Shown: positions 10,947 through 25,511 of the stretch, piece after piece
How the letters are laid out: each line of letters opens with the position of its first letter
Numbering within the stretch: the stretch's first letter is position 1
Assembly: GCA_017555745.1 (NCBI GenBank)
Contig: JAFZFU010000087.1
Location: 1 to 40,749, forward strand
Length of the DNA stretch: 40,749 nucleotides
Direction: 5' to 3'
Origin: Bacteroidales bacterium
Lineage (GTDB): Bacteria > Bacteroidota > Bacteroidia > Bacteroidales > P3
Program-made: the position numbers and the translations under genes
Notes under the pieces: generated by a model
The model's database searches: none
What the model was told of the DNA's origin: nothing
Seen by the model: the letters and a program-made list of their open reading frames with translations, nothing else

Positions 10947-11012
10947 ACACCCTATCGTCAACTTCACCACACCCTATCATCACGCAAACGACACCCTATC
11001 GTGGTGTAATAC
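10947..11012. repeat. 22-bp direct repeat, three units (ACACCCTATCGT type)
   Basis: Units begin at 10947, 10969 and 10991. Only the first 12 bp (ACACCCTATC(G/A)T) are conserved; the other 10 bp vary. The period equals that of the neighbouring array although the sequence differs. Confidence 0.8.
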
Positions 11013-11187
11013 AACCCCTGTTGATTTATTGGAAAACAACCTCTATTTGAATATCAGATGTTTACGATGATAACTCTGCTATATTGCCTTATTTCTCGCC
11101 AAAAATATCGCAGCATTCAAATACGCCATTCTCCATGTTAAATGATGCGGTGTTAAAATGTCGCAAAATTGTTAATGGGGTTCTTAT

Positions 11188-11382
11188 GGCAACTTCTAAA
11201 AATTCCACGTTTCAGTAAAATAGAAGAATTCTTCTTTAAACTTTTGCGTGCTTTACGTTTTTTGCCGAAATCTTTCTATTTCTTTTTCAATCGCATAGCC
11301 CGCTATGCTCAATCAAAAGAAAGTAGAAATCTTTTTAGCAAAATTCCGTAAATCACTTGCAAAGCAATTTTTAGAAATTGCC
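11188..11382 (+). mobile_element. 195-bp MITE-like element, copy 2
   Basis: Terminal inverted repeats GGCAACTTCTAAAAATT and AATTTTTAGAAATTGCC bound the element. A perfect 4-bp target duplication, TTAT, flanks it (11184-11187 and 11383-11386). It has the same length and central palindrome as the other two copies and no transposase gene. Confidence 0.92.
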
Positions 11383-11413
11383 TTATTTGAAACGTGCCGT
11401 TGGCGTGTCTCTA

Positions 11414-11453
11414 CGAAAAAACAACGGACAACATTCCGTTTGTTGTCCGTTGT
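11414..11453 (-). terminator. terminator of the left giant surface-protein gene
   Basis: On the minus strand a 13-bp stem (ACAACGGACAACA / TGTTGTCCGTTGT) with a 7-nt loop is followed by a run of T (plus-strand A run 11415-11420). The stem is the same as that of the right giant gene terminator. Several GACAACA direct repeats lie between it and the stop codon. Confidence 0.85.
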
Positions 11454-11485
11454 CTGTTGTCTGTTGTCTGTTGTCTGTTGTCCGT

Positions 11486-14400
11486 TTATTCTAAATTGAA
11501 TTCTATGGCGGGGTGTACGCATATTTTTATTTCGGCACTGCGTGAACAACCATTTTTAGTGATAGTTAAACGATACCAACCTTCATCTACAGTTTTATCT
11601 GCTGAAGTTATAGTTAAGGTATGTTTATTAACGGTCCATCTTCCATTGTAATCATTATGATCTGGACCTATCAGATCTGTAACATCAACGTATTCATCAT
11701 CTCCACCATTCTTATATTCCCATTTATAGCTTTCTCCGGAATTATAAATAAAATCATTGTTTGTTTGAGTTTCACCATTCATCTTCTTTGCCACAAGCTC
11801 GATAGTACTACCATCACAATAGCAATTGTTTTCGCCATCAGCATCACCTTGTATATAGAAATTTGGCCACGGTTCCGGTTTTACTACTATTTGAGCAGGA
11901 GTAGATTCTTTGCCACACAAGTTTGTAGCTTTAACTGTTACAGTTATTCCGTTAGTTTTATTAGCTTCCACATTGTATTTTCCATCTACAGCAGGTGAAC
12001 TTGTTTGTGTAACATCCACTTTTTTAATACCACAACTTTCGCCTGTAACATCTATAAGATCAGCCAAATTTGGCATTTCAAACGTTTCGCAGAAATAAGT
12101 AGGTATATTTATTGGTTGACCACCTGTTACAACCGGTACATTATTGTCAGCAACACTTATTAGGAATATTTTTTCTTCTATACATCCTGTTTCATTACTT
12201 TTTGCACGCACCGATACTCTCACGTCTCCACAAGTGTCAGGCATAGTAATATTGGCAGTATTATTATCTCCAAAACTACCACCGTCGAATGAATATGTAT
12301 AATCGCTCAAAGCTAATGCATTAGGAGGAGTAGCTTTATCTCTTAAAGATGTTACTGTAAAGGTAATTACCGAGCCCGGACAACATGTATAAATATTAAA
12401 CTGACCTGGTGTCAAGGTTGTTTCGCCTATTTTCAATTCTGCTCCTATTTCTATATCCAAATAGTCTTCTATTATAATGCTTCCCACCGAAGCCTTACAT
12501 CCATGTCCGTCTTCTACCATTATGCTATATGTACCTTGTTCTAGGCCTGTAAATTCTTTTGTAGGACTAGATTGAGTTGATTCGGTAGAAGTAGATGAAT
12601 TAGAGGATGTCATCACAAATTTATAATTACCTACAGATTTATCAGAATTAGTCACCGTAACCTGTATCTTACCATTAGGCTCATCACAATCGTTTATATT
12701 TGTTGGTTGGTGTGTTAATATCGGGTTGGCGTGAACAGTTATTGTGTTATGAGGTATAACCGCAGTACGACAACCGGCAGCATCAGTAACGGTATAGTTT
12801 ATAGTACTTGTATTTGAGTTATCCGGAATGGTTGTAGTATATGTAAGACGAGGATTTGGCGTACCGCTAGGTATATTAGGTATTGTAACATTGTCTATAC
12901 CCACTCCGTCGGCATCCAAATTCAGACTATAAGGAGCTGTACCTCCCGTTATTGTAGGAAGGTTAAATGTTACTTGTGTTCCCTGACAGCCGGTTTTACT
13001 ATCAAAATTTCCTAACTCGATTGGTATCAAAGGCGCAATGGTTATTTGCTCTGTTTTCTCACACTCGTAAGTTTCATCTTCTATGGTAATATCGTATATC
13101 ACATTATTAGATCCTGTATTAGCGGGTATTGGAAACTCATATACTCCACCACCTACGTTATTAGCTACTACCTCATTAGTACCATTCATATAGTATACCT
13201 TATAGTTGCCACTTCCATTGGTTATGGTAAATTGTATTTTAGCGTTAGTACCATCGCTACATCCATTAAATACCTTATAAGTGTAATTGAATGTCGGCTT
13301 AACCAATACTGCAAATACACCCATGTCCAAATTAAGTTGACATCCCCCAACCTCTGTTATAAGACGACGGAAATAGCTGTTCGATGTAAATGTTCCGTTT
13401 ACTGTATATTGGCATCCTACTTCATCAGGAGTTCCATCGTTGTTAACATCAATAGGACTCCAATTTATATTATCAGATGATTCCTGCCATATAAAACCTA
13501 TAGGATAAGAAGTAGTCTCATTATATTGCCAAGTGTAATTACCGGCTGTCCCCGTAACGTTTGAAGGACATGCACCTATTGTTGTATTGTTTACTGTTTC
13601 ATTACCACATACGGTTATTGAGGCATCGGTATGCGTTCCGGGATTAAAATCACCGCCTTCTTCTGCATATATGGCATCGGTATACACTATACCACATTCC
13701 GATATATATGCCCTGCGATACCAACCATTTGCTGCTACTGTATGCGATTCCGTTTGGTTGTCTAACGAGTTCCATCCTGTGCTACCTTCGGCAGGCTCGT
13801 TGCCTTCCACTCCTGCATGGAACTGCCATTGGTAATGAGCATCAGGATCTCCTCCACTTGCAGGATTAACCGACAATAACTTGGTTATCTCTAGAGAAAC
13901 ACTTGCTCCTTGATTAGAACAAGTTACTTTCTTTTTTTCGATATTTCCCGCCTCTAAATCATCGTATACAGTTAAATTGAAATAAATTTTTATTGGACAT
14001 CCATATTTTGAAAAACCATCCGCTTCAAAATTAGTCGATTCTGTCACTGTCATACCTGTTGGAGGATAAACATAAGTATGCGGTCCTTGACGTACTCCGG
14101 CGGTATCGTATGTATAATACGATTCTGTAAACTTATACACTGTGCCTTTACATACCGAATCTATTACCGTTCTATTTTGAGGTGCAAAAGCTATTACTCT
14201 ATCTTCTATAATATCTTCCACCATAGTTTCCTGACACAACTCGTTATTATATACAATGGAGAATATATGGGCCTCTATAATATGTTCTCCTATATGATCT
14301 ATATTTTTTACAAAATGAGTTTCGCCCGCTGCTACGTTTATACTTTCTCTTTCCACAGAACCTATACCATTGTCATATCTAAAATATACATCTATATGAT

Positions 14401-17050
14401 CCACATTAGTGGCATTTGAGTTTACGCTAAATCTGTAGTCAGTACCTGAACAGAAATGGTGATCGCTAGGTAGAGCCGACACATCAAGCACATAATTTGT
14501 ACCATTTTGATTGTTAGTTCCCACCATAAGATTACTACGGTATGGTATAGTAGCACAACCGGCATTGTAAGCGTAACCACGCCATTGTCCCAAACCATAA
14601 ACATGTATAACCATTTTATTGCGTTCGTTGCTTTCCAATGTGTATGTACCATGGCTTATTCGCACTCTGGCATATACATATTTATTATCACTACCGGCCA
14701 CATAGTTTGGAGTATTGTTTACATTATTGTCACTAAAGAAAAATCTACGAATATTATTTTCGTTATTCGTTGCCTCAAATGGTGGCGGAGTAAGGGTTAT
14801 CTGCTGCCCTTCTGCAATACCTTCAACCGGCATTACGATATTTACATAATGGTCATTTGCAGCAATGTTGGTAGCAGCAAAAGTCGAAAATGTAAGCTTT
14901 GCCAAACCACGCTCAACCGGTGCTATCCATATCATTGATGGCGCACCAATATCATCTCCCGCTTTTTGATATAAATAACACGCAACAGGCTTATTTGAAG
15001 TCAAATAATGAGCACCATCAGGAGGTAAATTCATTCGTACCGTTGTTACTCCTGCATTTAAGTCGTATGTATTATTATTGAATGTAAAAGTCGTATTATC
15101 CTCTTTGGCAGTAACAAATAAAAAGTCATCGTTATACCCCTTTGATGATGTAATGGCAAACTTTGTTCCCCAATTAGAAATAGGAAAAGCAGTTTCCATC
15201 AAGTGATCCTTATTTGAACCATCAACAGCTGTAACTGTATTTCCATTAAATACTGCGATGGTTTTACATTTATCTCTTTGATACTGCAATGTTGACTCCG
15301 TGCCATCGTAACGATCTACTACCGATACTTTGAGTCCTGAAAAATTATCAAGTAAATCAGTTTCACTACCATTACCTTTAATAAAGTAGGAATCCCCTTT
15401 ATTCAATATTATATCACAACTAGTAGGTGTGCTGGCAATTGGAGTTGTTGGCAACGATAATAGTGCCATCTTATTTGCATCACCTTCTATACGTACACGA
15501 GTATCGTTTTCTGTTGCTATTATCATAAAACATGGGTGACGATCCTCGGAGCTGGCACTGGTAGTACTTCCATTCAAATCCTCGTTTGTATAAGTCTGTA
15601 TCATGTATTCTACTCCTAACGCTGTAGTAGGAAGCACTACCGATGCATCAAACGAGTTATAAGCCTCGTTGGCTACATATAGCGATATATCAAATTCGGA
15701 AGTAACCAAAACAGTACGACGCATATAATCTTCATCAACGTCATAGTGATACACGTCACTTTCTTCCAATTCAACAATAGTAGTAGTGCCGGCTTCCACA
15801 GGAATAACCTCTTCTACAGGTCTACCGGTTCCCTCTCTGGCATAGTAATGAAATGTTACCGAGCCGGTCTGCGAAGAAGCTATTATGGCAGTATATTTAT
15901 GAATATTCCCTTTATTGTAGTAACCATTCTGCATAAGCGAGAAGTAGAACTCACGTCCTTGAGTAGATGGCGACACGCTAATGTCTCGATCGTTGGAATT
16001 TGCATATCTCAGTTTAAAGTCTTTAATAATCTCCCAACCACATGTCGGCGATGCCATATTATCGTTTACCGGTATTGCAGTCCAATAATATGTACCTTCG
16101 GGCATTAAAGGGATAAGATATTCCGGATTATCCGATGCCGGAATATAATTTGGTGTACCATTCATTAATGCATCTCTGTCGTTAGACACATATACATTAT
16201 ACCCTGTAGCACAAGGCACGGGATCCCAGCTAAGCCAACGACTTGTTACTTCTACTCCACCACGAGGGGTCATGGAATTAGGGTTTACACATGACAAATT
16301 ACTACACACCATAAAGGTACGTGGCTCGCAAGTAACAATACAACCATCTGCTATAAAAGTCAATGTCCAAGTATAAGTACCATCAGTTAAATTATTCAAT
16401 TCTAATAACTCGTCAGTTCCTGCGCTGTATGAACTAGATACTCCACCATCTTTGGTAACGGCAACGCTGTATGTGGCAGTACTAGATACCTCACCCCAAG
16501 TTAATGTGGCAGAACCAGAGCTAAGAGTTTCACTTAGAGTAGGGCATTCGGGGCAACATGATGGAGTTTCTATAGTAAAAGAGAAACCGGCAGGGGTACA
16601 GTTGGTTTTTCGGTTATTATCGATGTTATTAACAATCTGAAAAGTTGCCGACTGCCCGGATGCTATTTGTACATTATTTATTACTACTTGTCTTTCGTAA
16701 GTACCAGTACCATTCCTTGTATAACAAGCTGAATTAGAATAACCATTATTAGTATTGCCATTAGGATTATTATTAATTACCACATAATCGTAATCATTAC
16801 TTCTTTTCAACGTATTCACAGTAATACCACTTATCGTAATAGCCTGACCGGTATTATTAGTAAAGGTATACGAATCTTCAGTGGTGGCAGAAACATTGTA
16901 GGTTTTGCCACATTCAAAAGTTGCACCTTGGTTGGTTACATTAACCGTCTCTTGTCCCCAAACAGTAGCGAAATTTAACAATAGTAATAATGAAAGCAAA
17001 GCGGTTATCTTGCTTCGGAATGATGTTTTTGTTTTAAAAAGAGCACTCAT
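11486..17050 (-). CDS. giant secreted surface protein with IgGFc-binding-like and SprB-like repeats (left switch arm)
   Basis: The 1,854-aa protein starts with a Sec signal peptide (MSALFKTKTSFRSK...ATVWGQ). Next come fibronectin/Ig-like modules with cysteine pairs (about residues 150-350), a large domain like the IgGFc-binding protein family (from SPSTQGREFYFSLMQNG near 360 to VYGLGQWRGYAYNAG near 820), PKD/Ig-like modules (HYQWQFHAG) and SprB-like repeats (about 1250-1600; GCSDGTNAKIQFTITNGSG). It ends in a conserved module (PEPWPNF...NNCYC, final VHPAIEFNLE) shared with the right paralogue. No standard type IX secretion C-terminal domain was recognised. The Met at 17050 is preferred because it matches the paralogue; the frame stays open to an ATG at 17086. 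Its promoter region lacks a -33 box in this orientation, so it is predicted to be silent. Confidence 0.88.
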   Translation of the reverse strand: MSALFKTKTSFRSKITALLSLLLLLNFATVWGQETVNVTNQGATFECGKTYNVSATTEDSYTFTNNTGQAITISGITVNTLKRSNDYDYVVINNNPNGNTNNGYSNSACYTRNGTGTYERQVVINNVQIASGQSATFQIVNNIDNNRKTNCTPAGFSFTIETPSCCPECPTLSETLSSGSATLTWGEVSSTATYSVAVTKDGGVSSSYSAGTDELLELNNLTDGTYTWTLTFIADGCIVTCEPRTFMVCSNLSCVNPNSMTPRGGVEVTSRWLSWDPVPCATGYNVYVSNDRDALMNGTPNYIPASDNPEYLIPLMPEGTYYWTAIPVNDNMASPTCGWEIIKDFKLRYANSNDRDISVSPSTQGREFYFSLMQNGYYNKGNIHKYTAIIASSQTGSVTFHYYAREGTGRPVEEVIPVEAGTTTIVELEESDVYHYDVDEDYMRRTVLVTSEFDISLYVANEAYNSFDASVVLPTTALGVEYMIQTYTNEDLNGSTTSASSEDRHPCFMIIATENDTRVRIEGDANKMALLSLPTTPIASTPTSCDIILNKGDSYFIKGNGSETDLLDNFSGLKVSVVDRYDGTESTLQYQRDKCKTIAVFNGNTVTAVDGSNKDHLMETAFPISNWGTKFAITSSKGYNDDFLFVTAKEDNTTFTFNNNTYDLNAGVTTVRMNLPPDGAHYLTSNKPVACYLYQKAGDDIGAPSMIWIAPVERGLAKLTFSTFAATNIAANDHYVNIVMPVEGIAEGQQITLTPPPFEATNNENNIRRFFFSDNNVNNTPNYVAGSDNKYVYARVRISHGTYTLESNERNKMVIHVYGLGQWRGYAYNAGCATIPYRSNLMVGTNNQNGTNYVLDVSALPSDHHFCSGTDYRFSVNSNATNVDHIDVYFRYDNGIGSVERESINVAAGETHFVKNIDHIGEHIIEAHIFSIVYNNELCQETMVEDIIEDRVIAFAPQNRTVIDSVCKGTVYKFTESYYTYDTAGVRQGPHTYVYPPTGMTVTESTNFEADGFSKYGCPIKIYFNLTVYDDLEAGNIEKKKVTCSNQGASVSLEITKLLSVNPASGGDPDAHYQWQFHAGVEGNEPAEGSTGWNSLDNQTESHTVAANGWYRRAYISECGIVYTDAIYAEEGGDFNPGTHTDASITVCGNETVNNTTIGACPSNVTGTAGNYTWQYNETTSYPIGFIWQESSDNINWSPIDVNNDGTPDEVGCQYTVNGTFTSNSYFRRLITEVGGCQLNLDMGVFAVLVKPTFNYTYKVFNGCSDGTNAKIQFTITNGSGNYKVYYMNGTNEVVANNVGGGVYEFPIPANTGSNNVIYDITIEDETYECEKTEQITIAPLIPIELGNFDSKTGCQGTQVTFNLPTITGGTAPYSLNLDADGVGIDNVTIPNIPSGTPNPRLTYTTTIPDNSNTSTINYTVTDAAGCRTAVIPHNTITVHANPILTHQPTNINDCDEPNGKIQVTVTNSDKSVGNYKFVMTSSNSSTSTESTQSSPTKEFTGLEQGTYSIMVEDGHGCKASVGSIIIEDYLDIEIGAELKIGETTLTPGQFNIYTCCPGSVITFTVTSLRDKATPPNALALSDYTYSFDGGSFGDNNTANITMPDTCGDVRVSVRAKSNETGCIEEKIFLISVADNNVPVVTGGQPINIPTYFCETFEMPNLADLIDVTGESCGIKKVDVTQTSSPAVDGKYNVEANKTNGITVTVKATNLCGKESTPAQIVVKPEPWPNFYIQGDADGENNCYCDGSTIELVAKKMNGETQTNNDFIYNSGESYKWEYKNGGDDEYVDVTDLIGPDHNDYNGRWTVNKHTLTITSADKTVDEGWYRLTITKNGCSRSAEIKICVHPAIEFNLE

Positions 17051-17081
17051 TTGCCTATATTTTTTGTTAAAAAACTTGTTG

Positions 17082-17161
17082 TTCATACCTATATTTTATT
17101 GTACCATTATATGGTGGACACCAATGCTTGGCAACCACACATTTGGTTTGCAAAAGTAAAC
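17082..17161 (-). repeat. left inverted repeat of the invertible segment (80 bp perfect)
   Basis: On the minus strand, the 80 bp from 17161 down to 17082 are identical to 18447-18526 read on the plus strand. The match continues past the start codons into the signal-peptide codons (to about 17023) with one substitution and one T-run length change. The minus-strand -7 box TACTTTTG lies at 17151-17158. Small dyads inside (TGGTG-TC-CACCA; ACCAT-ATA-ATGGT) are candidate recombinase-binding sites. Confidence 0.95.
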
Positions 17162-17187
17162 CTGCATATATAATCCGTTTGCAAGGC

Positions 17188-17280
17188 ATGCGGTTTAGCA
17201 GTTAAAACTATGTGGTTTACCACCCCTAACTCCCATACTTTCGGGTCAAAAGTGTGGGAGTTTTATACCCTAAACCGCAT
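17188..17280 (+). promoter_or_regulatory. nested hairpin region upstream of the recombinase
   Basis: An outer 11-bp inverted repeat (ATGCGGTTTAG / CTAAACCGCAT) encloses a strong hairpin at 17228-17262 (AACTCCCATACTTT / AAAGTGTGGGAGTT) and a smaller GTGGTTTACCAC dyad. On the plus strand the inner hairpin is followed by TTTTAT, so it could stop or attenuate rightward transcription towards the recombinase. It could also be an accessory recombination site or a structured RNA leader. Confidence 0.6.
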
Positions 17281-17382
17281 AATTGTGTAGCACAACTTAT
17301 GTGCCCGGAAATAAAAACTATCTAAAGACAAAGATACCAAACAACATTCTAATGCGTAACTACTACATCTAATTTAATTTAA

Positions 17383-18348
17383 ATGATGAATACTTTTAAT
17401 ACAACTGCTTATTTCCGTCCGAAAGAGAAAGCTAATTGCCGAAAAAGAAGGGCTATAACGGTAAAAGATATTATTGTTTGCCGACAAGAAAAGATTAGAA
17501 AACATACCGAGATGGTAGACTTATCGCTGTTGAAGCATCTAGAAAGATTTGCCGGTAAGAACATCGATGTAAAAAACATAGATACAGACTTTTGCCATAG
17601 ATTTGCCGATTATCTTGTGGCTAAAGCCGGTATAAAGGCCAGTAGTGCCACCACTTATATGCAAAAACTACATGCAGTGTTGCAATATGCTGTTAGCATG
17701 GGTTTTATAAAAGAAAATCCTATGCCGCCTATAGGTAAACTCTTACCCAAGCATACAAGCACACAACGTGCCAACCTGGATGTAAAAGATATAGAGAAAC
17801 TTACATTGGCGTGTTGCCCACATTTGATAACCAAATTGGCTTTTCTTTTTTCGTGTTATACGGGGTTGCGACTATCGGATATAGAAACCCTTAAATGGGA
17901 TAACATACATAGATACAACGGCATGCAGATGTTGACAAAGATACAGGTGAAAACAAATAGCGAAGTGAATATACCTCTTGGCAAGCAAGCGTTGCATATA
18001 TTGAAACAAGTGAAAAGTATGCAACTCTCTTCCGGCGAAAATATATTCCCTTTGCATTCGCGCACCACCATATATTCCGACTTAAAGCAGTGGGCTGCAA
18101 ATGCCGGTATTGACAAACATATCACCTTCCACACTTCACGAATAACGTTTGTTACGCTCTCCATTTCGGCAGGTATCAACATGTATGTAATATCCAAGTT
18201 GTGCGGACATAAGGATATAAAAACCACACTCACCTATGCACGAATGATAGATGACACCTACCTATGTGCAATAACCATGTTTGAACGCATATTTAAGACA
18301 TATAAGAAGAAGCAAAAAAGCGTGCAAAGTGTTGAGTTATTAATATAA
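17383..18348 (+). CDS. tyrosine recombinase, probable invertase of the adhesin switch
   Basis: The 321-aa protein is a tyrosine site-specific recombinase of the type common in Bacteroidota. An N-terminal SAM-like DNA-binding domain (about residues 40-130) precedes the catalytic domain. The catalytic residues are visible: Arg163 (TGLRLSD), a beta-hairpin Lys near 190 (QVKTNSEV), His250 and Arg253 (HTSR), His276 (CGHKD) and the nucleophile Tyr285 (TYARM). No residue is missing, so it should be active. It lies alone between two inverted repeats that carry the promoters of two divergent surface-protein genes, so DNA inversion is the likely job. It points at the gene predicted ON. No good promoter was found directly upstream; ATG 17383 and 17386 are both possible starts. 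Confidence 0.95.
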   Translation: MMNTFNTTAYFRPKEKANCRKRRAITVKDIIVCRQEKIRKHTEMVDLSLLKHLERFAGKNIDVKNIDTDFCHRFADYLVAKAGIKASSATTYMQKLHAVLQYAVSMGFIKENPMPPIGKLLPKHTSTQRANLDVKDIEKLTLACCPHLITKLAFLFSCYTGLRLSDIETLKWDNIHRYNGMQMLTKIQVKTNSEVNIPLGKQALHILKQVKSMQLSSGENIFPLHSRTTIYSDLKQWAANAGIDKHITFHTSRITFVTLSISAGINMYVISKLCGHKDIKTTLTYARMIDDTYLCAITMFERIFKTYKKKQKSVQSVELLI

Positions 18349-18425
18349 ATATCAGCATTTAATGCCGTTGAGACGAAAAATATTGAACACTATATCAAAG
18401 TGTTGCGACAATTTAAGAAAATAAA

Positions 18426-18457
18426 TTTGTCTATTTCAAAAATAAAGTTTACTTTTG
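18426..18457 (+). promoter_or_regulatory. intact switch promoter of the right giant gene
   Basis: TTTG (18426-18429), a 20-bp spacer and TACTTTTG (18450-18457) form an exact Bacteroidota promoter. The -33 box lies inside the invertible segment, while the -7 box lies inside the inverted repeat. At the corresponding place beside the left gene the -33 position reads GCAA, so that promoter is incomplete. Confidence 0.82.
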
Positions 18458-18526
18458 CAAACCAAATGTGTGGTTGCCAAGCATTGGTGTCCACCATATA
18501 ATGGTACAATAAAATATAGGTATGAA
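18447..18526 (+). repeat. right inverted repeat of the invertible segment (80 bp perfect)
   Basis: This is the partner of the minus-strand repeat at 17082-17161, identical over 80 bp, with further near-identity to about 18586 and partial similarity through the signal-peptide codons. It contains the -7 box and the 5' leader of the right giant gene. Confidence 0.95.
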
Positions 18527-18560
18527 TAACAAGTTTTTAACAAAAAATATAGGCAAATGA
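18522..18560 (+). CDS. possible 12-codon leader peptide overlapping the giant gene start
   Basis: ATG at 18522 opens a frame reading MNNKFLTKNIGK and stops in the ATGA that starts the giant gene, an arrangement suited to translational coupling. In the left arm a T6 rather than T5 run puts the same leader in frame with the giant protein. Whether the leader is translated is unknown. Confidence 0.4.
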   Translation: MNNKFLTKNIGK

Positions 18561-21500
18561 GTGCTCTTTTTAAAACAAAAACAACCTTCCGAAGCAAGTT
18601 TTCTGCTTTGCTTTCATTATTACTATTGTTAAATTTCGCTACGGCATGGGGACAGACGACGATAAATATGACAGAGACTTCTAGAACTGTCGATGTAGGT
18701 TGTGGTAACACATACACTTTTCAGTTGCAAGCAAATAATGCAACCGCTACAAGAACGTATATATTTAGACCGGGTGCCAATACCTCGATAACTATAAGAA
18801 CATTTACATTTCATGCCGTAAGACAATACGCAAAGTCATACTGGTCATCAACAGATTTGCGTGATTATTTAGAGATAAGCTATGGTTCTACAACTCTCAC
18901 TTATGGTAATGATGATAATAATTGGGGGAATTCTTGTCATGAAATTCCAGGTACTGGATTCTTCTCTACTACTACTACTTACTATCATAAGAATGTAACA
19001 GTTCCGGAAATAACAGTTCCGGCAGGGGAAGAGGTTACATTTACATTCCATAGAAGTACCGATTATACTTCGGGAGGAAATTGTACAAAAGCTAACTTTT
19101 CTGCTACACTAGCAACTTCTATCTGTTGCCCAACTCTTACCGCTCCTACGGATGGTGAAGTTGTAGAAGCCTCAGATTCTGTAACTCTTACTTGGGAGGC
19201 TATGTCAGGTGTAACATCCTATGATGTGTATGTAAATAATGCTCGTGTAGCTCAAAGTGTACAGAATACATCATGTCAATATAGCGGATTAGTTGATGGT
19301 ACCACTTATAGATGGAAAGTAGTGCCTGCCGGTGCTAATGCAGCAAACTACAGCCATTGCAGCCCATACACATTCAAAGCGTGTAGTGGCATATCGTGTG
19401 CCACCAACCTGCAGCCTGCCGATGGCACTGTGCTTACCGATCGTTTGATAAGTTGGGATGCTGTGGAGTGTGCTTCGTCGTACGAAGTGTTTGTAACTCC
19501 TACTTCGGTACCTGTTACTCAAATGTATGCTAAAAACACCGACAATACATACAAATACCTTGTGGCAGAGCCTACCTCCACAGAATATCATCTTCCTATC
19601 CTTACCGAAGGCGAATATCGTTGGGTGGTACGCCCAAAAAACTCTTTTGCAGTAGCCCAAGGTTGCGAAACGCACACTTTTAAAATACAATACCAAGATG
19701 CCGACGATTTTGCCGTAACACCATCTACCCAAGGTACGGAGTTTTACTTCTCGCTTATGGAGAATGGATATCAAAGCAATGGAGGGAATGTATACACAGC
19801 TGTTATAGCACCTAAGGTAAACGCAGAAGTAACATTCCATTACTACGCTGATCCTACTCAAAATCAAACATACATTGTTAGTGCAGGAGCGACAAGAGAA
19901 GTAGACTTGCCGGCAACTTTGGTACACCACGATGGTGTTGGTAGTCAATATAATAATCGTACAGTGCGTGTTACTTCTAATAATCCTATTTCGTTATATA
20001 TAGCAAACGAGGCCAGATACTCGTTTGATGCCTCGATAGTATTGCCTACCACTGCATTGGGTACCGATTATATGATTCAAACTTACGAAAATGGAAATCA
20101 CACCACCGGTGCCGTAACCCCTACCAGTGCAAGTCCTTGTTTTATGGTTATAGCCAAGGATGATAATACACCAGTGCGAATAAGTGGCCCCGAAACTAAA
20201 ATTAATGCTTTACGACCTACACCATCGAATGTTGGCACAGATGCTACTACAGGGTTGAAATACTTTGATATTACACTAAACGAAGGTGAATCGTATTTTC
20301 TTAGAACGGATTGGAATTCTACCTCAGGTAGTAGTGTATTAGACCTTTCGGGTGTAAGGGTAGCTGTAAATCCTCAATCCTCGGAAGATGATTGTAAAAC
20401 AATAGCTGTATTTAATGGAAATACTCTAACCAGAATTCCTGCACCTAGTGGCATTACCAACAATATGGACCACATATTTGAACAGGCTTATCCTATCACT
20501 AACTGGGGTACAAAGTTTGCCGTTACTTCGTCTATGGGTTTCGAAGCTCCGGGTAACGGTGTTTCCGAAAGTGAAGAAAACGAATACATACGCATTACCG
20601 CTACCGAAGATAATACAGAGGTAAAGATAAATGGTACTGTTGTTGATAGCGATCTTGATGCAGGTGAAACATACGACTATGATTTATATCGTCCTGATGT
20701 GTCAGAAGATTATCCAAATGGAACTTCGTGCTATATCGAAACCAATAAGCCAGTAGCATGCTATTTGTATCAACGTTCGGGATATAATACCTCAGATTAC
20801 GATGGCGACCCCTCTATGGTATGGATAGCTCCTATCGAAAGAGGTATCGAAGATATTACTTTCTCTACTTTTGCAGCTGATGGTATTAATGCTAATAATC
20901 ATTTTGTAAATATAGTAATACCTATCGAGGCTATATCGGGTGGGCAGGCTGTTATGCTTAAGCGTCCCAGTGGCACTGAAGAAAATATCCGTAGCCGTTT
21001 TATGACCGGTACAGATTATAACTATGTAGAAGGTAGTGGTAATAAATATGCCTATGCCCGTCTAAACATAAGCCATGGTACCTATACCTTGCGAAGTATT
21101 GGCAAGGGTAAGATGGTTATACACACTTATGGTATAGGTGAAGTTCGTGGTTATGCCTATGCTGCCGGTAGCGAGGCGGTGCCTTATAAATCAAACTTTT
21201 TAGTGGGAGATGAAAACGGTGGTATAATAGATATTTCCACATTGCAAGACCCTGATTTTCATTTCTGTTCCGGTGCCGGAGCGGAATATACTTTTATGAT
21301 AAATTCCAATTCGCCTAATGTGGATAGTGTTAAAATAGATTTTGATGATGGTTCTCCTATAAAAACAATAGATTTAACTAAAAATCAAAAAAGTGTAACA
21401 CATAGTATGCCTAACCCGGGTCCTTACGAGATAACGGCACAAGTGTATTCTACCATATACAACAACGCATTGTGTCAAGAAGAAGTTATAGTGGAAACGG

Positions 21501-24145
21501 TAAGAGATTATGTGTTTATATTCTTTAACGAAGCAGAAACAATACGAGATACTGTATGTTATGGTACTGATTATACCTTTACAAGAAATTATTGGGTGTC
21601 CGATACTGATGGTAATCTGGAACAACGCACGTATACCGAGACTTTCCAAAATGTAACAGAGCAACGAACTGCTACTGTAACCGGATATTCGGAATATGGT
21701 TGCGAAATGAATATAACTTTTATATTGGATGTGTATTCCGAAATAACTGCCGGAACCATAACTCCCAACACAATTGAGTGTATGAGCGATGGTCACAATA
21801 TAGGCTTGTCGGTAGTGCAGTTGCAAAACAGTGTTTCTGCTACAAGCAACGACCCTAATGCTCACTACCAATGGCAAAAATCTACTACCGAATCCGGTCC
21901 ATGGGTAGATATTACAAACCAAACCGGCGAATCATATATAGTTACCGAAAACGGATACTATCGTCGTGCATATATTGCGGCATGTAGCACTGCTTATTCC
22001 AATGTGTTGCAAGCCGAGGCTTCGGGAACGTTTAATCCCGGTACACCTATCGATAATACTGTTAGAATATGCTCCTACGAAACTTTGCCACCAACCACTT
22101 TGGGCGTTCAACCCTCCAATACTGAATATGATGGAGAAGGCAATATGGTGCTTATAGGTGGCGGAGATTATAGAGTGTTGTTTCAATGGCAACAATCTAC
22201 GGATGGTGGTGCAACATGGAGAGATATAAATGGTGCAACATCACATAACTATACTCTTCCCACTTCATATACCCAATCTACATCGTTCCGCCGATTGATA
22301 ACAGAAGTGGGACCTTGTACTATCAATTTGAGTTCGGGTAACTATAATGTAGTGGTAAAACCAACATTTGAATACGAGAAGACAATTGTAAAAGGTTGCC
22401 CCGGCGAAAATAATGCGTCGGTAGAGTTCACCATTACAGGTGGTAGCGGTAGCTACAAGGTATATTATACCGAAACAGCAGGAAGTACCACTGTCGATTA
22501 TCTTGCCACATCGCTTGGCAATGGAAAGTATATATTCCGCAATCTTACAAACAGCGGTTCGGCATCGTACGCTTTTACAATAGAAGACGAGATACACGGA
22601 TGTGAGAAAACCGAAACTATAACAATCGGTGCACCCACTGCATTGAGTATAGGCAGTGCCACTGCTGTGGCAGGTTGCCAAGGTGCTACCATAAATATAG
22701 ATATTCCTGCAATAAGCGGAGGTACAGGAGAGGGTACTTATCGAATAGAAGTGGAATCGTCGGTATTAAATATAAATGAAGAGGTTACTGCCGATCCTTA
22801 TTCTGCCACCATACCCGGTGGTGCTGCTGCCGGCACTCATACCGTGATATATAAGGTGTTGGATGCCGCAGGATGCTACAAAACAAGCACTCAAAATGTT
22901 CTTACCATATACGCCAATCCGGTGTTGGCATTGTCTAAGACCAATATCTCAGATTGTCAAAATCCAAACGGAACTATTACAGCTACTGTAACAAATGCTC
23001 CTAATAGCAGTACCAGCTACACATATACTATAGATCCCGGTACTTCGTATGCGGGACAAGCATCGTATACATTCGACCATCTTTCGCACAACACATATAC
23101 CGTTACTGTAAAGGACAACCAACAATGTACTGCAGTCGGCTCGGTTACTATCGAAGATAACCTCGACCTTACAATAGCTACAAGTGTAACAGATATGGAG
23201 GATAATAGTATTCTTACCGATGGATTTAATGTAATATGCCCCAAAACTGAGTATAAGGTAAATGTAACCCAAGTAAACGGAGCAAACACTCCTGTATTGG
23301 ACGGCGAAACCTCGCAGTCGTTGTACCAATATTCTTTCGATGGAGGCAATACTTTCAGTACTGACTATTCATACACCACCATATCGCCTAATACATGCAA
23401 CAACCAAAACATAAATGTAGTGGTTATGGAAATGTCATCGCATTGCAAAGACGAACAGAATGTGCAGGTGATAGTGCAAGATTTGGAAGATCCCGTAATG
23501 GCACCTACTCTTACTGCTATAGAAAAGGAAGTGTACTTCTGCACACAATACACATTTGATATAGCAGATTATGCAAAAACAATATTAGATGCCACCAACG
23601 ACAATTGTGCTGCCAAAGCCGATTTGCAAGTAACAACTTCGCCAAGTATGCAATCGATAGTATTGTCTGTTTATAATGATGATAATAGTATTAAAACAAC
23701 CGATGTTACATTCACCGTTACCGACTTGTGTGGTAATGATAGCGAAAGAAAAATCACCATCACCCCCAAACCATGGCCAAACTTTAAAATAAACGGCACA
23801 GCTACAGATGGTACCGACAACAACTGCTACTGCCACGGCGATAATATTGTGCTTACTGCTGTGGTTGATAATGGAACAACAAATGGAGTTGCTATAGACG
23901 AAACAACGTATCCGGGAGCAACATACCAATGGTATAAGGGAACTGAAGCCATAACTGATGGAGATAAATATAGCGGTGCCACAACCAAAGAGTTGAAGAT
24001 AAGCTCAGCTATATCAACTGATGACGACCCAACTAATGGAGATGATGGAGTATACAAACTTGTTATCACCGATCCTAAAGGATGTAAAAAAGAAGCAACA
24101 ATAACAATCTGTGTACACCCCAATATAAAATTCAACTTGGAATAA
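18557..24145 (+). CDS. giant secreted surface protein with IgGFc-binding-like and SprB-like repeats (right switch arm)
   Basis: The 1,862-aa protein has a Sec signal peptide nearly identical to that of the left paralogue (MSALFKTKTTFRSKFSALL...), then fibronectin/Ig-like modules (about 190-380), an IgGFc-binding-like domain (from TPSTQGTEFYFSLMENG near 385 to TYGIGEVRGYAYAAG near 860), PKD/Ig-like modules (HYQWQKSTTESG near 1100), SprB-like repeats (from about 1270, GCPGENNASVEFTITGGSG) and a final module (PKPWPNF...NNCYC, VHPNIKFNLE). The body diverges clearly from the left protein while the domain order is kept. No type IX C-terminal signal was recognised. A role as adhesin or cell-surface filament is inferred. 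The complete promoter predicts that this is the expressed arm in the orientation given. Confidence 0.9.
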   Translation: MSALFKTKTTFRSKFSALLSLLLLLNFATAWGQTTINMTETSRTVDVGCGNTYTFQLQANNATATRTYIFRPGANTSITIRTFTFHAVRQYAKSYWSSTDLRDYLEISYGSTTLTYGNDDNNWGNSCHEIPGTGFFSTTTTYYHKNVTVPEITVPAGEEVTFTFHRSTDYTSGGNCTKANFSATLATSICCPTLTAPTDGEVVEASDSVTLTWEAMSGVTSYDVYVNNARVAQSVQNTSCQYSGLVDGTTYRWKVVPAGANAANYSHCSPYTFKACSGISCATNLQPADGTVLTDRLISWDAVECASSYEVFVTPTSVPVTQMYAKNTDNTYKYLVAEPTSTEYHLPILTEGEYRWVVRPKNSFAVAQGCETHTFKIQYQDADDFAVTPSTQGTEFYFSLMENGYQSNGGNVYTAVIAPKVNAEVTFHYYADPTQNQTYIVSAGATREVDLPATLVHHDGVGSQYNNRTVRVTSNNPISLYIANEARYSFDASIVLPTTALGTDYMIQTYENGNHTTGAVTPTSASPCFMVIAKDDNTPVRISGPETKINALRPTPSNVGTDATTGLKYFDITLNEGESYFLRTDWNSTSGSSVLDLSGVRVAVNPQSSEDDCKTIAVFNGNTLTRIPAPSGITNNMDHIFEQAYPITNWGTKFAVTSSMGFEAPGNGVSESEENEYIRITATEDNTEVKINGTVVDSDLDAGETYDYDLYRPDVSEDYPNGTSCYIETNKPVACYLYQRSGYNTSDYDGDPSMVWIAPIERGIEDITFSTFAADGINANNHFVNIVIPIEAISGGQAVMLKRPSGTEENIRSRFMTGTDYNYVEGSGNKYAYARLNISHGTYTLRSIGKGKMVIHTYGIGEVRGYAYAAGSEAVPYKSNFLVGDENGGIIDISTLQDPDFHFCSGAGAEYTFMINSNSPNVDSVKIDFDDGSPIKTIDLTKNQKSVTHSMPNPGPYEITAQVYSTIYNNALCQEEVIVETVRDYVFIFFNEAETIRDTVCYGTDYTFTRNYWVSDTDGNLEQRTYTETFQNVTEQRTATVTGYSEYGCEMNITFILDVYSEITAGTITPNTIECMSDGHNIGLSVVQLQNSVSATSNDPNAHYQWQKSTTESGPWVDITNQTGESYIVTENGYYRRAYIAACSTAYSNVLQAEASGTFNPGTPIDNTVRICSYETLPPTTLGVQPSNTEYDGEGNMVLIGGGDYRVLFQWQQSTDGGATWRDINGATSHNYTLPTSYTQSTSFRRLITEVGPCTINLSSGNYNVVVKPTFEYEKTIVKGCPGENNASVEFTITGGSGSYKVYYTETAGSTTVDYLATSLGNGKYIFRNLTNSGSASYAFTIEDEIHGCEKTETITIGAPTALSIGSATAVAGCQGATINIDIPAISGGTGEGTYRIEVESSVLNINEEVTADPYSATIPGGAAAGTHTVIYKVLDAAGCYKTSTQNVLTIYANPVLALSKTNISDCQNPNGTITATVTNAPNSSTSYTYTIDPGTSYAGQASYTFDHLSHNTYTVTVKDNQQCTAVGSVTIEDNLDLTIATSVTDMEDNSILTDGFNVICPKTEYKVNVTQVNGANTPVLDGETSQSLYQYSFDGGNTFSTDYSYTTISPNTCNNQNINVVVMEMSSHCKDEQNVQVIVQDLEDPVMAPTLTAIEKEVYFCTQYTFDIADYAKTILDATNDNCAAKADLQVTTSPSMQSIVLSVYNDDNSIKTTDVTFTVTDLCGNDSERKITITPKPWPNFKINGTATDGTDNNCYCHGDNIVLTAVVDNGTTNGVAIDETTYPGATYQWYKGTEAITDGDKYSGATTKELKISSAISTDDDPTNGDDGVYKLVITDPKGCKKEATITICVHPNIKFNLE

Positions 24146-24165
24146 AAACTGACAACAGATAACAG

Positions 24166-24213
24166 ACAACGGACAACAAGCCACACACGGAATGTTGTCC
24201 GTTGTTCTTTTCT
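24166..24213 (+). terminator. terminator of the right giant surface-protein gene
   Basis: The same 13-bp stem as on the left (ACAACGGACAACA / TGTTGTCCGTTGT), with a 14-nt loop, is followed by TCTTTTCT. GACAACA repeats precede it, as in the left arm. Confidence 0.85.
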
Positions 24214-24600
24214 GAGGCTTTGGGTTTGGCTTCGCTATCGCTACGCCGAATCTACGGAATCTACGGAATTATGGAATTATGGAATCACGGAATTATGGAG
24301 GGCTTCGCTAGTGCTTCGCCAGACTACGAGACTACTAGTCAACAAGACAACGAGTGGGGCTTCGCAAGGCTTCGCCGACAACAGACAACAGAACTTGGGC
24401 TTCGCAAGGCTTCGCCGACAACAGACAACAGAACTTGGGCTTCGCAAGGCTTCGCCAAACGACTACGTCGACTTGTAGTCTATAAAAAAGCAAAAAGAAA
24501 GCACTAGTAGTCTCGTAGTCTGCGAAGCTACAGCTGAGCATAATGCGCCAGCCACTTGTTGTCTCGTAGTCTTGTAGTCTGCGAAGCAAAATGTCGAATA
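24214..24600. repeat. mosaic intergenic repeat (element B), copy 1
   Basis: The stretch is built of repeated words: ggaattatggaat, gggcttcgcaaggcttcgcc (three times, two of them as 41-bp tandem units with gacaacagacaacagaactt), gacgtactcg-type dyads around gactacgtcgacttgtagtct, and gtctgcgaagctacagctga. Its ordered parts recur at 25512-25690 and 28140-28500. No gene is supported in this 539-bp gap apart from the promoter at its right end. Confidence 0.75.
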
Positions 24601-24620
24601 AGTTGTTTAGATAAATAAAT

Positions 24621-24651
24621 TTTGTTGATTCGAGAAAAAGTTGTATCTTTG
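24621..24651 (+). promoter_or_regulatory. promoter of the MNT/HEPN pair
   Basis: TTTG (24621-24624), a 19-bp spacer and TATCTTTG (24644-24651) match the consensus exactly. Translation starts 34 bp downstream. Confidence 0.87.
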
Positions 24652-24684
24652 CAGTCCGAAACAGATTTGTAAATTCTCATAAAA

Positions 24685-25008
24685 ATGAAACAAGATACCA
24701 TCGAAATATTATCTGCGGTTAAGCAAGAACTGCATAGCATAATTCCGGAAGGTAGCAAGATTTTGCTTTTTGGATCTCGAGCCCGAGGCACCGAGCGTTT
24801 GGATTCGGATTGGGATATCTTGGTTATTTTAAATCGCGAGGGTCGTGCTTCTATCGACGACTACAATACAATAGGCTATTCGATAAACACAGTGTTTTGG
24901 ATGATGAATTTTGATGTAAACACTATTATACAAACCGAAAGCGAGTGGAAAGCCAAAAGTTTTACTCCCTTTTACAAAAACGTAATGGAAGACGCTGTAA
25001 TATTATAA
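24685..25008 (+). CDS. MNT-domain nucleotidyltransferase, putative antitoxin
   Basis: The 107-aa protein has the minimal nucleotidyltransferase signature GSX10DXD (GSRARGTERLDSDWD; G30, S31, D42, D44) and a third acidic position in NFDVNTII (D77). It is paired with a HEPN-domain gene that starts 13 bp after its stop, so it probably acts as the antitoxin or modifying partner. It is only distantly similar to the mntA at 9769 and belongs to a different subtype. The gene has its own consensus promoter and is flanked by direct repeats of intergenic element B. Confidence 0.87.
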   Translation: MKQDTIEILSAVKQELHSIIPEGSKILLFGSRARGTERLDSDWDILVILNREGRASIDDYNTIGYSINTVFWMMNFDVNTIIQTESEWKAKSFTPFYKNVMEDAVIL

Positions 25009-25020
25009 TATAGGAATACT

Positions 25021-25425
25021 ATGAGTTTGACAGAAGAAGAAAAAAAACAGATAGTAGACTATCGTTTGGAGAAATCCAAAAAAACATTGGAAGATGCCAA
25101 AAAAGTAATTGAACTAGAAATGTGGGTAACAGCAGCCAACAGATTGTATTATGCTGCTTACTACGCAGTATCAGCATTACTTATAGTCAATAATATAAAC
25201 ACAAAAACACACGATGGAATAATCAGAATGTTTAATCAACATTTTGTCTATTCGGGAAAGATAGATAAAGAATTGGCACGACAATATAATTCATTATACA
25301 CTATGCGTCTTACCGGAGACTATGGCGACTGCTTCGATTTGCAAGAAAACGATGTTTTGCCGTTAGTAGAACCTGCCAAAGCATTTATCGCCAAAATTTG
25401 GGAAATGATAGAATCCAAGAATTAA
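25021..25425 (+). CDS. HEPN-domain protein, partner of the MNT protein
   Basis: The 134-aa all-helical protein shows the HEPN pattern: YRLEKSKKTLEDAKKVI (about residues 16-32), then AANRLYYAAYYAVSALL (about 39-55), and a C-terminal RLTGDYGDCFD segment (about 101-111). HEPN proteins of this subtype (COG1895-like) accompany MNT nucleotidyltransferases in toxin-antitoxin or defence modules. The canonical Rx4-6H ribonuclease motif of HepT is not evident; R-x-x-x-D-Y is present instead, so nuclease activity is uncertain. Unlike the damaged hepT near 10 kb, this pair is intact and follows its own promoter. Confidence 0.85.
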   Translation: MSLTEEEKKQIVDYRLEKSKKTLEDAKKVIELEMWVTAANRLYYAAYYAVSALLIVNNINTKTHDGIIRMFNQHFVYSGKIDKELARQYNSLYTMRLTGDYGDCFDLQENDVLPLVEPAKAFIAKIWEMIESKN

Positions 25426-25511
25426 GATAATCGATAAGAATAGTATTGGGTGTATTAGCCTACGCAATCCCGTATGCGGTAGCCGGCTCATTGCCCATTG
25501 CTCGTAGCTCA

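Follow-up and report, generated by a model that had tools for sequence, protein, structure and literature searches.

In the S-layer switch of Campylobacter fetus (sapA/sapA2), a single promoter sits on a DNA segment that can invert, flanked by two divergent surface-protein genes that are homologous and share identical 5' ends. That segment is about 6 kb long, carries secretion genes, inverts in a RecA-dependent manner and is not known to encode a dedicated recombinase. In the Hin system the promoter is also located on the segment, where it switches a single operon on and off; control of the other antigen is indirect. According to the section of PMC5903667 dealing with the Salmonella flagellar switch, the recombinase gene lies inside the invertible segment, as it does in the locus described here. 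Unlike the enzyme described here, which is a XerD-like member of the Phage_integrase family, Hin is a serine recombinase in the relevant sections of PMC5903667 and PMC11868660. A putative 844-bp invertible segment near fimbriae in Providencia stuartii likewise encloses its own recombinase ORF; its repeats are imperfect and 14 bp long, and the section on it in PMC5903667 mentions neither a divergent paralogue pair nor an overlap between promoter and recombinase arm. Self-contained invertible segments are already known from Hin and the putative Providencia segment.

Within the Bacteroidota, the sections of PMC4747536 used here describe tyrosine-recombinase invertible promoters in Bacteroides fragilis, namely IVp-I and IVp-II with BF2766/tsr19. 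The same sections give that system a tyrosine recombinase, a promoter with a -7 box of the form TAnnTTTG, inverted repeats and IVp control of surface-related operons, all of which are reminiscent of the present locus. Unlike the present arrangement, the B. fragilis recombinase gene is near IVp-I and its product also acts on a distant site, and the promoter orientations described turn operons on or off rather than choosing between two divergent paralogues (PMC4747536, same sections).

The segment, its recombinase and its inverted repeats

The window, by which we mean the whole stretch of 40,749 nucleotides analysed, is contig C72 of a 2.38-Mb assembly (125 contigs) from a host related to ruminant-gut Bacteroidales. 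Between inverted repeats at 17082-18526 is a segment of about 1.3-1.4 kb containing a recombinase gene and one predicted promoter (Table 1). In common with Bacteroidota promoter invertons, the segment is bounded by inverted repeats, is linked to a site-specific recombinase, here through a gene on the segment itself, and carries an outward consensus promoter (18426-18457). As in the C. fetus type, the segment lies between divergent homologous genes whose 5' regions are identical; the either/or layout resembles S-layer switching and differs from it by the recombinase on the segment. The module is real and self-contained and has the anatomy of an inversion switch, here most likely an either/or selector. 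We place at roughly 80% the probability that the segment is inverted by its own recombinase, so that its promoter serves the left giant gene in one orientation and the right one in the other. This reading draws on the intact recombinase, the exact repeats, the single outward promoter with its one-sided -33 box, the dyad with its spacers, and homologous operons found at opposite ends of related segments.

Table 1. Positions of the features of the predicted switch and its flanking genes within the window
Feature	Position	Strand	Remarks
Left inverted repeat, exact 80 nt	17082..17161	-	Imperfect extension to about 16940
Right inverted repeat, exact 80 nt	18447..18526	+	Imperfect extension to about 18667
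Strong hairpin upstream of recombinase	17187..17281	.	Copy of dispersed genome repeat; 10 other folded switch loci without an equally strong fold
Tyrosine recombinase, 321 aa	17383..18348	+	On segment; catalytic residues present (domain search, alignment, XerD comparison)
-33 box TTTG	18426..18429	+	20 bp ahead of -7 box; the only one adjoining either repeat
-7 box TACTTTTG	18450..18457	+	Doubles as inner arm of predicted right recombinase site
TACTTTTG in left repeat	17151..17158	-	No -33 box at 19-21 bp; GCAA at 20 bp
Predicted right recombinase core TTTACTTTTG-CAAAC-CAAATG	18448..18468	+	Spacer 18458-18462; crossover position predicted
Predicted left recombinase core	17140..17160	-	Spacer CAAAC likewise (17146-17150); crossover position predicted
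Right giant gene, 1862 aa	18557..24145	+	Signal-peptide-like N-terminus; PF17517; predicted on as assembled
Left giant gene, 1866 aa from first ATG	11486..17086	-	PF17517; probable start 17050 (MSALFKT); predicted off as assembled
Terminator-like hairpin ACGGAATGTTGTCCGT after right gene	24187..24202	+	
Terminator-like hairpin ACGGAATGTTGTCCGT after left gene	11423..11440	-	

The first-pass annotation, made from the letters of the window, had described perfect 80-bp repeats enclosing a tyrosine recombinase with all catalytic residues, extending imperfectly into the signal-peptide codons of two divergent paralogous giant genes. Each of these points was recovered. With the imperfect extension the repeats total 222 bp at 93% identity, running through signal-peptide-like codons of both flanking genes and containing both starts, and their local alignment score of 245 compares with at most 31 in 40 shuffles. 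The recombinase has a Phage_integrase domain and a SAM-like N-terminal domain, and its top sequence match among solved structures is XerD. Residues R163, K190, H250, R253, H276 and Y285 occupy invariant columns in a 39-sequence alignment and align with like residues of XerD; from this alignment and from general knowledge of the family we take them to be catalytic. Among the NCBIfam matches listed were nine Xer, integron and integrase models, all scoring under their curated cut-offs.

The two repeats differ by a one-base indel (17051-17086 versus 18523-18560). On the left, the gene could begin 12 codons further upstream (MNNKFFNKKYRQ-MSALF; window 17051-17086), and on the right the equivalent leader terminates in a TGA overlapping the ATG of the giant gene; leader-fused and unfused types both exist among the giant homologues. 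The only other match to the repeat in the genome (C81, 23 bp) is without a partner repeat of that kind and was discarded as a further recombinase site. The hairpin between the left repeat and the recombinase gene was rejected as a working component of the switch. This dispersed palindromic repeat has 24 genome matches including its own, some of which represent one site read on both strands, and of the 11 loci folded the window alone has a strong upstream fold (z -5.2, against -2.2 or weaker elsewhere). No Rfam match was found for it, and we regard it as a repeat inserted here, perhaps with an insulating effect.

The predicted recombinase site and predicted promoter

Alignment on TTTG of 30 repeat arms, from the window and related loci (15 loci in total), revealed a dyad with the consensus TTTACTTTTG-N5-CRAAAG. 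Its symmetry is maximal with a 5-nt spacer, where 5.8 of 8 positions match as opposed to 2.7 in shuffled arms, and falls to 3.3 and 3.5 at the neighbouring spacers of 4 and 6. The spacer takes 12 forms across the loci, yet is identical in both arms at all 15; permutation gave a mean agreement of 1.5, and none of 200,000 permutations reached 15. Tyrosine recombinases require spacer homology between their sites, and identical spacers within a locus are what that requirement would lead one to expect. Because the loci had been found by way of exact repeats, part of this identity is built in by selection. In a control, sites were therefore picked on each side by a leave-one-out matrix that ignored the spacer. 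Agreement was obtained at 14 of the 14 repeat-bearing loci tested as opposed to none of the 15 scored loci lacking repeats (four more were left out), with single arms of L204, L023 and L213 falling under their best shuffle. Any relation of the dyad to the CTnDOT integrase, whose attB core is GTANNTTTGC, would be speculative.

The Bacteroidales promoter consensus, as given in the portion of PMC8748976 used here, has a -33 box TTTG and a -7 box TANNTTTGY. Between 16500 and 19000 the full consensus is matched once: TTTG at 18426 is separated by 20 bp from TACTTTTGC at 18450, and the pair is directed toward the right gene from the 3' end of the recombinase gene. The left repeat carries TACTTTTGC too, but has GCAA in the -33 position, the nearest TTG being at 23 bp. 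When the segment is inverted in silico one promoter match remains, now directed toward the left gene. The annotation's reading of the -7 box in both repeats, of a -33 box on the right side only and of a promoter re-aimed by inversion was thus reproduced by the scan, and promoter function at 18426-18457 is predicted from this agreement with the consensus. A looser scan of 11000-25500 added two matches: one at 24621, which would serve a gene farther downstream, and one at 19895 within the right gene that points leftward (TTG, TATGTTTG) and counts against the switch reading.

Of the proposal that half of the promoter lies in the repeat and half in the segment, the first part stands, as the -7 box is within the repeat. 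Crossover is predicted just downstream of this box, which would be the inner arm of the site, and both boxes would then be on the segment side with the whole promoter on the moving side, so that inversion probably does not split it. Consistent with this, the far arm has not even the TA of a -7 box at L023, L206 and L213. The recombinase would act on the dyad TTTACTTTTG-CAAAC-CAAATG at the start of each repeat, exchanging strands within the 5-nt spacer or next to it. At both ends the segment-facing arm spells the -7 box TAnnTTTG, but a -33 box is present only at the end by the recombinase stop codon. A complete promoter would in this way travel with the segment, leaving at the other end a -7 box presumably non-functional alone. 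The assembled orientation would have the right gene expressed and the left one silent, and the reverse would hold once the segment had inverted; the benefit may be antigen or adhesin variation. In the literature searched, by a few queries with partial coverage, no description was found of a recombinase arm doubling as a -7 box.

Related loci and their neighbouring genes

A search of 190 genomes of the family (E up to 1e-45) located related recombinases at 26 places in 19 genomes, belonging to 2 of 12 genera. An order-level draw of 393 genomes gave no place beyond the window's own genome. Motif-bearing inverted repeats surround the gene at 15 of the 26 places and are absent at 10, L217 being left uncounted. 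The repeat pair is present at 10 of 11 places in the window's genus, the exception being L106, and at 5 of 15 places in the second genus. In a tree of the recombinases the repeat-bearing members do not form a single clade. At one of the 15 loci the arms are on separate contigs, C65 and C73. These contigs each end within one recombinase gene (L108 1-881, L111 1-232). Taken alone, the repeats of some loci are weak: L208 scores 25 against a shuffle maximum of 28 and L206 25 against 23, and L100 and L104 reach 34 and 33 (maximum 29 for both). The inverted repeat of L023 is 11 nt long.

On the recombinase-3' side, 14 of the 15 loci have a TTG ahead of TAnnTTTG at a distance of 19 bp, or 20 bp in the case of the window; on the other side none has one, and the chance of a -33 match per arm is about 5% on average. 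L105 and L109 are near-copies, and counting them once gives 13 of 14. The single exception is L025, with TTG at 23 bp.

For comparison, 63 of 160 loci from public genome and viral collections were scanned, comprising seven apparent family members and 56 more distant recombinases. The scan flagged TAnnTTTG repeats at just two loci, L020 and L025, already counted above as L103 and L211, and within 600 bp at none of the 56 more distant recombinases, a few of which have short flanks. Among the 80 loci listed on viral contigs the highest identity is 37%, and none of the 16 scanned has TAnnTTTG repeats. Six of the 56 distant loci (L039, L042, L054, L075, L123 and L124) have other inverted repeats of 12-50 nt from which the motif is absent. 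Three of these, in Muribaculaceae and Alistipes, hold recombinases between long repeats: L039 (19, 1389; 27 nt), L042 (3175, 4991; 50 nt) and L075 (9118, 11401; 38 nt), and are candidate inversion systems of another type, without TAnnTTTG.

At L106 (8869-10097) there is a clear left arm (score 27.0) and the right arm is missing (best 4.1); this is perhaps a locked or decaying switch. Among the matches listed, which comprise at least 120 related recombinases, many are on contigs of 1.2-1.5 kb, a length that breakage of the assembly at the switch repeats would produce. This was rejected as evidence of inversion, as an assembly built from short words is interrupted wherever a long exact repeat occurs.

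The genes adjacent to these loci are varied. L101 is next to a NusG-like gene, an M48 peptidase and Hsp70, L100 to an M48 operon, L102 to a tubulin-like gene, L104 and L023 to UDP-glucose dehydrogenase, L109 to HU, and L025 to FHA and FtsK genes and an OMP barrel. In the ORF lists, the window, L101, L104 and L025 have outward reading frames on each side, whereas several other loci have them on a single side and look like on/off switches. At C65/C73 the neighbouring beta-galactosidase and rhodanese genes both point into the segment, leaving no outward gene at either arm. Two pairs of loci carry homologous operons at opposite ends: L100 at the promoter end and L101 at the other (proteins 38-75% identical), and L023 at the promoter end and L104 at the other (74% identical). 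These may be flips or cases of separate recruitment. Flanking genes are common between species at two loci, L105/L109 and L106 with C73.

These comparisons bear on two further claims of the first-pass annotation. Of the readings considered, an either/or inversion switch that carries its recombinase on the moving segment has the best support, strengthened by the 15 loci, the one-sided -33 box, the spacers and the opposite-end operons, with the amendments that the promoter is probably unsplit and the locus is not a one-off. The suggestion that the arrangement might be undescribed has to be narrowed: the locus belongs to a family of at least 15 in two genera and its general layout has precedents, and what was found only in the window is the choice between two giant paralogues.

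The giant genes and competing readings

Each giant protein has one IgGFc_binding domain (PF17517) and, as read by eye, a signal-peptide-like N-terminus, and both are probably surface-exposed, judging from these N-termini. Past the repeats the two are divergent paralogues with 43% identity (757 of 1746 aligned residues). As they share signal-peptide-like starts and terminator-like hairpins, the two genes together resemble a unit duplicated in inverted orientation, with the segment at its centre. A search for giant proteins gave 46 matches among 7994 candidates scored, of which 40 were aligned to both window genes (P0124, P0137, P0163, P0167, P0168 and P0169 were left out). The family is a patchwork in which modules of 70-92% identity to the left or right gene neighbour modules of about 30-60% (P0142, P0151, P0160). 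P0142, for example, matches the right gene at 71% over 33-200 and 87% over 1750-1862, and the left gene at 70% over 200-400 and 77% over 1600-1750. Mosaicism of this kind would be expected of exchange between paralogues. In searches covering 6 genomes from the genus and 190 from the family, full-length giants were found only in the window's own genome, and no orthologous pair in opposite orientation was seen.

Such strong mosaicism, and repeats that reach into coding sequence, would also suit an expression site with an archive, in which the repeats mainly serve homologous recombination between the giants, one expressed and the other a donor of modules, and promoter inversion is minor or absent. 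We regard this as unlikely, as it leaves unexplained the intact recombinase, the dyad with its locus-specific spacers and the one-sided -33 box at loci lacking paired giants; mosaicism and inversion are moreover compatible and can operate together. Still less probable is that no switch exists, and that an inverted duplication of a giant gene happens to contain a resident integrase, with both giants expressed constitutively from a promoter within the repeats. A sigma70-type match, TTGCCA-17-TATAAT (11/12), is indeed present inside each 80-bp repeat (7 of 2000 shuffles), and a matching terminator-like hairpin ends both genes, as in a duplicated unit. However, the Bacteroidales consensus in the cited portion of PMC8748976 fits the site at 18426-18458 and not the sigma70-like site, and the plan of recombinase plus asymmetric promoter recurs at unrelated operons. 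Were sigma70-type promoters functional in the host, both giants would be on whichever the orientation.

The many unrelated contexts of the family, and the absence of an outward gene at C65/C73, could instead suggest a small transposable element, made up of a recombinase and two terminal sites with an outward promoter and seen where it has landed. This we hold to be the least probable of the accounts, since inverted sites with identical spacers give inversion and not excision by the ordinary chemistry of tyrosine recombinases, spacers differ between loci, and flanking genes are common across species at the two loci noted above.

Beyond the either/or switch in the window, a broader proposal, to which we give somewhat less than an even chance, is that the segment is a portable self-inverting cassette. 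The recombinase arm and the -7 box would be one and the same DNA, for which RNA polymerase and the recombinase would compete. In gut Bacteroidales of two genera the cassette would have been installed before many operons that are unrelated to one another (UDP-glucose dehydrogenase, Hsp70/M48, tubulin-like, HU), becoming in the window's species an either/or selector of two giant mosaic antigens. If this is true, one 1.3-kb module would supply the enzyme, sites and promoter for heritable either/or expression in Bacteroidales, and a promoter box within the recombination site would explain a live and a silent end with minimal sequence. Binding of the recombinase would be predicted to repress the gene being switched. 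Promoter switching would also be linked to a mosaic family of proteins of about 1,900 residues, which would give uncultured gut bacteria a strong system of antigenic or adhesin variation. Its small size would allow the module to be tested in laboratory Bacteroides.

Two giant homologues, P0143 and P0164, have longest contigs that are both 13,535, and for P0005 (an 88% recombinase match) and P0162 (a giant) the longest contigs are both 7,257; the two pairs have the look of a second and a third copy of the arrangement. In the window itself, the stretch at 24200-24600, between the terminator-like hairpin and the promoter match at 24621, is rich in repeats with GGCTTCGCAAGGCTTCGCC and ACAACAGACAACAG units.
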